The notes under the pieces are model-generated. The model was not told the origin of the DNA, did no database searches, and saw only the letters and a program-made list of their open reading frames with translations. 33,046 bases of DNA, taken from NCBI GenBank assembly GCA_949293185.1, contig CASFCQ010000016.1, positions 1 through 33,046 of the forward strand. Direction: 5' to 3'. The stretch's first letter is position 1, and each line of letters begins with the position of its first letter. Made by a program: the position numbers and the translations under genes. Positions 28,847-33,046 of the stretch are shown here, one piece after another. The DNA comes from an uncultured bacterium (lineage in GTDB: Bacteria > Cyanobacteriota > Vampirovibrionia > Gastranaerophilales > Gastranaerophilaceae).

Positions 28847-29395
28847 TCAGGCTTTTAGCGATAATTTATATGTTTCAGGTGCATTTTTGTTGCGCAAGTA
28901 CTCAAGTATAGCGCCTCCTACTTCCTCATTTGGATCAAATGGTATTTGTACCGGGTTTTGGGAGTTTTTTAAAAACATAGTCATCAATGGACCAAATGCG
29001 TCGGGAACAAGGGTTTTTCTATAAATTCCGGCAAGCATTACCTGTACGTTATGAGATTTTGAATAATTAAATCTTGAAATAATCGGATAAGTATCTCCAA
29101 CATTTTTTGCACCTGCGTCTATTATCCTGTTTAAAAGGAACAAACCTGCAGTTATATCTTTTTCGTTTTCACTGCTCTTAAGCATATTCAAAACAGGATT
29201 AACAGCTTTTTCTTTATAGGAGGCAATTTTTTGAGCAAGATTTTCGTCAAAAACTGCATGATTAACTTTTTCATCCGGTAATACAAATGATTTTTTAAAA
29301 TGTTCAACCATTTGGCAAGGGGCTTCCTCATGTACAGCCGGGTATGCCGGTGATATTGAATAAAAGTTTTTAAAAACAACAGGTTGTATGTGCAT
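28847..29395 (-). CDS. Hypothetical helical-repeat (HEAT-like) protein, third gene of the B12-riboswitch operon
   Basis: 182 residues. The N-terminus, HIQPVVFKNFYS, carries an F-[KR]-[GN] motif seen in two other proteins of the window. Residues of about 55-170 consist of antiparallel helix pairs with a HEAT-like spacing (AVNPVLNMLKSSENEKDITA, GLFLLNRIIDAGAKNV, VQVMLAGIYRKTLVPDAFGP). No signal peptide. AAGGGT lies 9 bases before ATG 29395. It starts 20 bases after the upstream gene's stop, so it is in the same transcript. Confidence 0.55.
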   Translation of the reverse strand: MHIQPVVFKNFYSISPAYPAVHEEAPCQMVEHFKKSFVLPDEKVNHAVFDENLAQKIASYKEKAVNPVLNMLKSSENEKDITAGLFLLNRIIDAGAKNVGDTYPIISRFNYSKSHNVQVMLAGIYRKTLVPDAFGPLMTMFLKNSQNPVQIPFDPNEEVGGAILEYLRNKNAPETYKLSLKA

Positions 29396-30975: not shown

Positions 30976-31683
30976 CTATTCTTCGCTTTCTTGTTCGGTG
31001 AATGGGTGCGGCATATGTTTTGTATTAAACAGTGTTTCTTTAGTAGTATTTTCTTCAAAAATCATTTTTTGTTCTTCGATTCTTTTTATTTCCTCGTCCT
31101 CTTCATTTTCGGCTTCGGAAATACCAAAAAGACTAAAAATTTTCTTTTTAATATCTTTAAGTTTGTCTGATATTTTCTTTTCAATAGCTGCTTTTGCTTC
31201 TCCAAGCATTGCTGTTAATTTATCAGCTATATCAATTATTTTTTGCTTAAAAGAGTCGATTGTTTTTGTTATGTTATTTGCAAAATTTTGTATAGTGTTG
31301 CTTATTGCCTGCAAAGCTTTTGCAGCAGGGGTAACAATAACATCCAAAGCGACAGTTAAAGCTTTAGCTATTGGTTTTGGCAGGGATGAATTTAATATAG
31401 CAAGTTTCATTGCATTAATTTGTGTCTGCAAATTATCGAGATGAGCCTGCAGAGTTTGGGCTGCAAACATCTGCTGGGTATGGAGTCTTGCCTCTTTTTG
31501 CGCCTTAAGCATCTGTCCGATAGCATAACACTCATTCCAGGTCATTTCTTTAGGCTTGTTATCTTTTTTTACGCTTCCGCCGCCTCCCATACCGTTACAG
31601 ATGGGACAAGCCCCCATTGGCAAACCGTGCGGACAAGTCCCTATTCTGTTGTTATTAGCTGCTCTTGAAAGCGTTGCCGCCAT
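30976..31683 (-). CDS. Hypothetical protein with N-terminal Cys/His knuckle, first gene of the B12-riboswitch operon
   Basis: 235 residues. Near the N-terminus it has CPHGLPMGACPIC (C17, H19, C26, C29), a probable zinc-binding knuckle, followed by a Gly run. The middle (about 60-190) is long amphipathic helix (ALQAISNTIQNFANNITKTI, DSFKQKIIDIADKLTAMLGE). The C-terminus is acidic (SEAENEEDEEIKRIEEQK). No signal peptide or clear membrane segment, although residues 90-130 are fairly hydrophobic and may lie on a membrane. AAGGA is 7 bases before ATG 31683 and is buried in a leader hairpin below a cobalamin-riboswitch core. The function is unknown. Confidence 0.6.
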   Translation of the reverse strand: MAATLSRAANNNRIGTCPHGLPMGACPICNGMGGGGSVKKDNKPKEMTWNECYAIGQMLKAQKEARLHTQQMFAAQTLQAHLDNLQTQINAMKLAILNSSLPKPIAKALTVALDVIVTPAAKALQAISNTIQNFANNITKTIDSFKQKIIDIADKLTAMLGEAKAAIEKKISDKLKDIKKKIFSLFGISEAENEEDEEIKRIEEQKMIFEENTTKETLFNTKHMPHPFTEQESEE

Positions 31684-31691
31684 AAAAAATT

Positions 31692-31733
31692 CCTTGTTTT
31701 CTTAATTCCTCAGCGCTGCGGGAAAAAACAAGG
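31692..31733 (-). promoter_or_regulatory. Hairpin that sequesters the ribosome-binding site (riboswitch expression platform)
   Basis: In the transcript CCTTGTTTT (31733-31725) pairs perfectly with AAAACAAGG (31700-31692), and inside it TTCC pairs with GGAA. The 3' arm contains the AAGG of the Shine-Dalgarno (31695-31691) for ATG 31683. This is the layout of a riboswitch that controls translation initiation. Confidence 0.6.
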
Positions 31734-31763: not shown

Positions 31764-31877
31764 CCATGCCTAAATCCCGAAGCTATGGTTATTATTTGTC
31801 ATTTTTGATGACAAAGAGTATTCCGGCTATACGGTTGCGGCTCAGCCCGGGATTTTCACCCATGTTCCCTCTTTTGT
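31764..31877 (-). promoter_or_regulatory. Cobalamin riboswitch
   Basis: Read on the minus strand, the core shows the conserved elements in order: ACAAAAGAG-GGAAC, then GGGTGAAAATCCC, then GCTGAGCCGCAACCGTAT, then AGCCGGAATACTC, and the closing strand CTCTTTGT (31818-31811), which pairs with ACAAAAGAG (31877-31869, one bulged A). These match the Cbl-family pattern GGGAA...GGUGAAAAUCC...CCGCAACyGU...AGyCrGAAUAC known from B12-controlled genes. A further hairpin (CCATAGC with GGCATGG, 31788-31764) follows. The usual L5 kissing partner is not clear. It is the leader of the operon 31683-28847. Confidence 0.85.
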
Positions 31878-31880
31878 TCA

Positions 31881-31909
31881 ATTGTACTTTTGACAAAAGT
31901 CAGTGTCAA
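31881..31909 (-). promoter_or_regulatory. Near-consensus sigma-70 promoter of the riboswitch operon
   Basis: TTGACA (31904-31909), exactly 17 bases, TACAAT (31881-31886). It overlaps the stop codon of the upstream membrane protein gene. The predicted start near 31874 puts the first transcribed bases at the first strand of the riboswitch core. Confidence 0.75.
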
Positions 31910-33046
31910 TTTTCTTTCTTTGTATTTTCATATATTGTCACATATCCCTGATAACGAACATTTTCCGAACGAAAATCGTAAACCTGTTTAATTTTGAATC
32001 CTTTAGGTTCAAAGAAATTGTGATCAATATAGCATCTGGAATCCATAATAATTGCGCCATCTTTATACTGGTCGGAAGTATAGAATCCCCCGCCATGTTT
32101 TTCATATACACATGAAAATGGTCTGTATGTCGGATAATAAGCATTTCCGTTTTTGGCAATTTTATACTCAGTTTTTGTATCTTTTGTTTCTTTTAACATA
32201 ACTGTGCTTGTTATAACCTGTTTTGTTACAATAATATAATCGTAATCATCATATTTGTAATTAGGTGCATTTTCAGCCAGCAGTGTGTCTATGTTATATC
32301 CATGATTATTTAAAATATTCAATATATAGATATTGTCTAATGCATCCGGTATCAAGGCAATTTTTGCACCTTTAGGTGTTTTTTGCTCTATATAATCTCT
32401 CATATAACAATAAGCATTTTTTCCTTCAAATCCGACATATAAAGCACATCGTATGCGTTCTCTGGCATGCATAATTGTCGGGGTTTTTAAAATCACATTA
32501 AATATATCTATAAACCCTCTTCCAGAAAGATTTACGCTGATGATAACAAAATAAGACATTACAAAAAAGAATATTAAAAGTTTTATTATATTAGTCTTTT
32601 TAATATAAGAAACAGCAAGCAGAGGTGCTGAAATTACAATCAAAAAAGTTAAAAACCTTATACTGAATACCATGTAAGCTATTGAAAAAGAAAGACAGGC
32701 TACGTTTATCAAAAACATAATACCGAAAGCAAATATAACGTTAAGTTTTTTACTGTGTCTTTTTGCTGCTCCCGCTCCCAATACAACAGATGTAATCAAA
32801 GACGGTAAAAATACCAAAAATCCTAAAATACCTGCTCCGGTTTTTACATTAAGAAGTCTGTTATTTATTTCATTATTGTCAGACATTTCCACACCGAGAT
32901 CCATCGGTATATGTAAAAATGAAAGAACAGCTTCTCGTGCCTGCAATATATGATCACCGACATATTCACTGTATCTGAAACCGGAAAAATCGAAGAGCAT
33001 AAAGAAGTATTTAATATAATTAGCAACAAAAGCTTTAAATCCGCCT
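31906..33046 (-). CDS. Polytopic membrane protein, 5' end beyond the window (glycosyltransferase-like layout)
   Basis: Partial. The frame stays open past the ATG at 33000 to the window edge (upstream residues include GGFKAFVANYIKYFF), so the gene begins outside and the internal ATG is not its start. Within the visible 380 residues, about four hydrophobic helices (GILGFLVFLPSLITSVVLGA, VIFAFGIMFLINVACLSFSI, FLIVISAPLLAVSYI, LLIFFFVMSYFVIISVNLS) are followed by a soluble C-terminal domain (KGAKIALIPDALDNIYILNI, then YDDYDYIIVTK). This matches the C-terminal half of GT-C membrane glycosyltransferases (ArnT/PMT-like), but the catalytic N-terminus is not seen, so this is a guess. The operon promoter of the next gene overlaps its stop. 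Confidence 0.6.
   Translation of the reverse strand, partial: GGFKAFVANYIKYFFMLFDFSGFRYSEYVGDHILQAREAVLSFLHIPMDLGVEMSDNNEINNRLLNVKTGAGILGFLVFLPSLITSVVLGAGAAKRHSKKLNVIFAFGIMFLINVACLSFSIAYMVFSIRFLTFLIVISAPLLAVSYIKKTNIIKLLIFFFVMSYFVIISVNLSGRGFIDIFNVILKTPTIMHARERIRCALYVGFEGKNAYCYMRDYIEQKTPKGAKIALIPDALDNIYILNILNNHGYNIDTLLAENAPNYKYDDYDYIIVTKQVITSTVMLKETKDTKTEYKIAKNGNAYYPTYRPFSCVYEKHGGGFYTSDQYKDGAIIMDSRCYIDHNFFEPKGFKIKQVYDFRSENVRYQGYVTIYENTKKEN

Follow-up and report, generated by a model that had tools for sequence, protein, structure and literature searches.

Here, we found that an operon of three uncharacterised genes, P235-P518-P182, is preceded by a genuine AdoCbl-II riboswitch, identified far above chance by covariance models and covariation, and that the two occur together throughout an order of gut bacteria, Candidatus Gastranaerophilales. 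Judged by its sequence, the riboswitch itself is a typical representative of an established class. The novelty lies in the link of this RNA, across a whole order of mainly B12-auxotrophic bacteria that lack the usual importer, to an operon that is uncharacterised; none of the papers searched describes the operon or its riboswitch link. Regulation of the operon by a cobalamin riboswitch is well supported by the leaders. Our best, still tentative, explanation is that the riboswitch acts as an OFF switch on P235-P518-P182 and that the operon is a corrinoid acquisition system unrelated to BtuB-BtuCDF, ECF-CbrT and BtuM.

An AdoCbl-II riboswitch precedes the operon

The window, that is, the whole stretch of 33,046 nucleotides analysed here, contains the following elements of leader and operon:

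31881-31909, minus strand: sigma-70-like promoter TTGACA-17-TACAAT, a consensus match only (11 of 12 positions)
31808-31885, minus strand: AdoCbl-II (RF01689) aptamer core, from covariance models and P3/P5 covariation
31764-31788, minus strand: P13, predicted hairpin CCATAGC-TTCGGGATTTAG-GCATGG
31684-31733, minus strand: predicted expression platform hairpin CCTTGTTTT...AAAACAAGG, then T6, adjoining the ATG; recurs in relatives
30976-31683, minus strand: P235, 235 aa, invariant CPHG-x3-G-x-CPxC, then a long amphipathic helix
29416-30972, minus strand: P518, 518 aa, internal duplication, four hydrophobic segments, conserved C-terminus EIKNGPPFVYS
28847-29395, minus strand: P182, 182 aa, soluble, probably helical, conserved QxxLAGxYRK and FDPxEEIGGAI

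The original prediction placed a cobalamin riboswitch at 31764-31877 of the minus strand. Every core segment that it named is present there in the order given, and its coordinates are correct and take in P13 (31788-31764); the expression platform extends beyond them, to 31684. At the Rfam gathering threshold no family matched in the window. At an E-value threshold, RF01689 was the sole Rfam family to match the leader, on the minus strand (31885-31808) and over its full length (1-81 of 81), with a significant score of 33.3 bits (E 2.5e-6; E 4.4e-6 in a genome-wide search) that lies below the curated gathering cut-off of 36.5 bits. The class-I cobalamin riboswitch, RF00174, was dismissed, as its covariance model gave no match in the entire genome. 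RF01689 also matched on contig C31 of the same genome (33.8 bits) and weakly at C8:7026 (18.4 bits); the latter was taken as chance, since it appears inside a 756-aa ORF.

The cobalamin identity was borne out by an independent covariance model, trained on 16 aligned riboswitches ahead of nrdD only, which included the nrdD leader of the same genome and excluded all operon leaders. This model scored the window leader at 52 bits (E 5e-10). In a search of the window and of 79 named P518-encoding loci, 78 of these loci had a single match each, on the same strand and in the corresponding position. The single locus without a match (L178) lies on a contig that begins 499 bp upstream of P518 and therefore cannot contain the leader. 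In the P5 stem of 30 operon aptamers, pairing holds in 115 of 116 cells and includes GC/AT/TA exchanges; for the first three pairs of P3 it holds in 83 of 90 cells, compared with a shuffle mean of 76.7 and with none of 5000 shuffles as good. Thus, P3 and P5 both show the compensatory changes that mark the paired elements of RF01689.

Could the leader have decayed, or changed its ligand, so that it no longer responds to cobalamin? The score of the window leader under the gathering cut-off would agree with this, but many orthologous operon leaders exceed the cut-off (39.1 bits in G013:C8 and 39.7 bits in G019:C9, for instance), the aptamer core is invariant among operon leaders and common to the nrdDG leaders of the same genomes, and P3 and P5 covary. 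We consider such a loss of response highly improbable. The AdoCbl-II, or AdoCbl-variant, riboswitch was described from marine metagenomes (PMC2864571); the window leader shares its core sequence, its P3/P5/P6 architecture and a 3' P13 with complementary loop, and differs in a score just under the cut-off and in an uncharacterised target operon.

In these genomes, the same riboswitch is also located ahead of nrdDG (class III RNR), metE, cobT and an OprB porin with CbiM and, in some members of the order, ahead of operons encoding a TonB receptor (BtuB-like), BtuC, an ATPase (BtuD) and BtuF. All of these belong to the customary targets of B12 regulation, so that in this lineage the RNA very probably functions as a B12 sensor. 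The window's own genome carries a second riboswitch of the AdoCbl-II class, ahead of nrdD-nrdG (L084:3088-5831, G000:C31). In G038:C76 (L094:1882-2413), two such riboswitches are arranged in tandem within a single intergenic region, one preceding cobT and the other an OprB-porin operon, and in G050 (L221) the riboswitch precedes an OprB porin, then CbiM.

Architecture of the leader from promoter to start codon

The putative operon promoter overlaps the preceding gene at its stop codon, and other promoter-like sites in the region have 9 matches each, compared with its 11 of 12. The transcript probably starts near 31874, within the Rfam match, which leaves the closing stem ACAAAAGAG/CTCTTTGT of the original prediction as the outer helix. 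Between the -35 and -10 elements lies a near-palindrome, CTTTTGTCAAAAG (31899-31887, minus strand), which is largely conserved in the leaders of the genus and is a possible operator for a second regulator.

In the window and in close relatives, the P13 loop GGGATTT could base-pair with AAATCCC in L5/P5 (31855-31849), a complementarity that suggests an L5-L13 kissing-loop contact. In the predicted platform hairpin, an SD-like AAGGA (31695-31691) sits in the 3' arm. Taken by itself, the window's hairpin has an unremarkable folding energy (z only -0.65), and the argument for a platform is therefore its recurrence: most relatives have equivalent hairpins with altered arms. In two other families (L079 and L081), a clean terminator is followed by a separate SD. 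The nrdDG copies of these genomes differ, as their SD adjoins P13 (on C31, instead of a separate terminator), whereas the window leader has a terminator/SD hairpin.

Within the genus, the 5' strand of the aptamer, GGGAACAGGGGUG, is able to pair with the 5' arm of the terminator, UAUCCUUGUUUUUC; in other genera, AUAAGAGGA is able to pair with UCCUCUUA. Own arms gave -10.5 kcal/mol on average versus -9.2 kcal/mol for swapped arms, with a permutation p of 1e-4 that is inflated by relatedness, a few terminator arms being mis-assigned and the window's own arm ranking only 10th. Such alternative pairing would be consistent with antitermination and with an OFF switch. At high AdoCbl, the aptamer would fold together with the L5-L13 contact, the downstream hairpin would form and expression would be off. 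When AdoCbl is scarce, the aptamer 5' strand or P13 would pair with the 5' arm of the hairpin and the operon would be made.

The proteins of the operon match no known family

P235 is followed by P518 in all 21 mapped loci and P182 comes next in 18, and both the leader and this gene order are kept across the order. P235 has ten invariant positions, mostly within CPHG-x3-G-x-CPxC. P518 has 22, and its internal duplication reaches z values of 7-15. Neither P235 nor P182 has a clear signal or TM segment. The downstream genes had been described at the outset as encoding a Cys/His-knuckle protein, a duplicated membrane protein and a helical-repeat protein, which is roughly correct. The accompanying claim that the riboswitch stands in front of genes of no recognisable B12 function also agrees with our searches: P235, P518 and P182 match no family, having no relative in Pfam, NCBIfam, PHROG or the PDB beyond helical noise. 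Predicted AlphaFold models were poor (pLDDT 56 and 64), and a fold search with the P518 model gave nothing below E 0.2, the model quality being too poor for use. The operon genes encode no ATPase, binding protein or beta-barrel.

For P235, several candidate identities were dismissed: a cobalamin adenosyltransferase (Cob_adeno_trans, E 0.04, below cut-off), coronavirus-like or SctB-like proteins (helical matches at chance level), a baseplate hub (a helical stretch only, E 9e-6) and an apolipoprotein homologue (the amphipathic helix only, E 0.002).

B12 need, synthesis and uptake across the order

How does the operon relate to the B12 economy of its hosts? The P518 family is placed in Candidatus Gastranaerophilales, and we surveyed 212 of its genomes, each at least 90% complete, scoring operon presence by P518; genomes negative for P518 may still have P235. 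P518 is present in 196 of the 212. The ribonucleotide reductase NrdJ, which requires AdoCbl, is encoded by the window's own genome and by 36 of 40 relatives. CbiC was found in only 3 of the 212 genomes, which leaves 209, the own genome included, without de novo corrin ring synthesis. A strong BtuC-type permease was found in 18, and about 194 (~91%), again including the own genome, lack BtuC. Most of these bacteria thus depend on a corrinoid whose ring they are unable to make, and they have no BtuC.

All three genomes with CbiC are without P518 (Fisher p 3.6e-4), these being deep branches that are not independent of phylogeny. BtuC and P518 are found together in 16 genomes, and a simple exclusion between them across the order found no support (p 0.63). 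Among the genomes tested that have NrdJ, 34 of 35 with neither CbiC nor BtuC carry the operon, versus 7 of 12 with either (p 0.003, from a non-random sampling and with statistics that ignore phylogeny). P518 also occurs in the NrdJ-less genera g36, g39 and g42.

The 16 genomes without P518 include the corrinoid makers with CbiC (G036, G038 and G050), two with a riboswitch-driven BtuBCDF (G020 and G042), two with a variant operon, riboswitch-P235-P182-P182' (G122 and G202; L216 and L217), seven with neither riboswitch nor NrdJ (G113, G131, G137, G160, G165, G170 and G195) and G200, which lacks NrdJ and has the riboswitch ahead of nrdDG only. G125 has NrdJ and no riboswitch and is an unexplained exception. 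Among the 23 members of its genus, G020 is both the sole genome with BtuC and the sole one without P235. Such a distribution is what one would expect if a corrinoid acquisition system could be dropped where B12 is unneeded or comes from another source.

A candidate system for corrinoid acquisition

The original prediction had offered two readings, a new corrinoid-linked envelope system or control of something unexpected by B12. We favour the corrinoid-linked one, because the genomes mostly need AdoCbl without its synthesis or BtuC and because the other targets of the riboswitch are canonical; the second reading is less favoured. The word envelope holds only in part, for P518 with its four hydrophobic segments, as P235 and P182 have none that are clear. 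With less certainty than for the OFF switch, we speculate that P518, assisted by P182 and by P235, which looks like a metal-binding protein, may import a corrinoid or hand it on. This would give the operon a transport role, one that we put forward as tentatively as corrinoid acquisition itself. It is possible, but doubtful, that P235-P518-P182 is an undescribed importer, unlike BtuCDF, ECF and BtuM, and at the same time the main B12 route of the whole order.

Against corrinoid acquisition stand the coexistence of BtuC and P518, the presence of P518 in NrdJ-less genera, the lack of an energy-coupling part in the operon, the G125 exception and the poor structure models. The first two of these observations, together with the missing ATPase and binding protein and with the control of nrdDG and metE by the same aptamer, would suit an operon that serves some other process during B12 shortage, either envelope-related or structural or a B12-independent substitute as nrdDG and metE are. 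We regard this as somewhat unlikely: no enzyme-like family is found among the operon proteins, and operon loss coincides with that of both the riboswitch and NrdJ, or with another source of B12.

The operon might instead handle corrinoids inside the cell, as a chaperone or in storage, dealkylation or delivery, with uptake left to a transporter encoded elsewhere. P235 and P182 look soluble, the invariant Cys/His motif of P235 could ligate a metal or cobalt, and G122 and G202 retain P235-P182 while dispensing with P518. However, the four hydrophobic segments of P518, its presence in most of the order and the lack of similarity to known trafficking proteins, the adenosyltransferase match falling below cut-off, make this quite unlikely in our judgement.

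Corrinoid acquisition by P235-P518-P182 can be compared with the known routes. With BtuB-BtuCDF, the operon shares the expected regulation and, in some members of the order, the same riboswitch ahead of it, but the proteins are unrelated in sequence: searches of P235, P518 and P182 against Pfam and NCBIfam found none of the BtuBCDF parts (TonB receptor, FecCD permease, ATPase, Peripla_BP_2), so that receptor, permease, ATPase and binding protein are all absent. With ECF-CbrT and BtuM, the likeness is one of discovery logic, namely an auxotroph without BtuCDF and a B12-linked membrane protein (PMC5997447, PMC6072759). Indeed, CbrT was predicted from gene organisation and the absence of BtuCDF and was confirmed later in E. 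coli lacking btuF, btuC and metE (PMC5997447), an assay that also served for BtuM (PMC6072759). In BtuM a Cys serves as cobalt ligand (PMC6072759), a partial likeness to the invariant Cys/His of P235. P518, in contrast, has a duplicated 2x2-TM arrangement with long helices, and Pfam, NCBIfam and PDB profile searches related none of the three proteins to a known S component.

For most B12-importing prokaryotes, the membrane proteins for uptake are yet to be identified, according to the BtuM study (PMC6072759). The riboswitch-marked operon is a candidate to fill this gap in bacteria that mostly use an AdoCbl-dependent RNR and are unable to make corrinoids. If this is true, it would add a route to the competition for B12 in the gut and assign a function to three protein families that lack annotation; if the operon does not serve uptake, B12 would control a process never linked to it before.

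Genes flanking the operon

The gene upstream of the leader (31906-33045, minus strand) encodes a membrane protein with weak similarity, below cut-off, to LA3751-type glycosyltransferases. It is one of a tandem pair in the genus (L064-L066), and other genera are without it at this place. On the 3' side of P182, L070, L072, L076 and L077 carry a set of three genes, encoding an unknown protein of 330-394 aa, a polyprenyl synthetase and a signal peptidase S26, and this set occurs in several genera.
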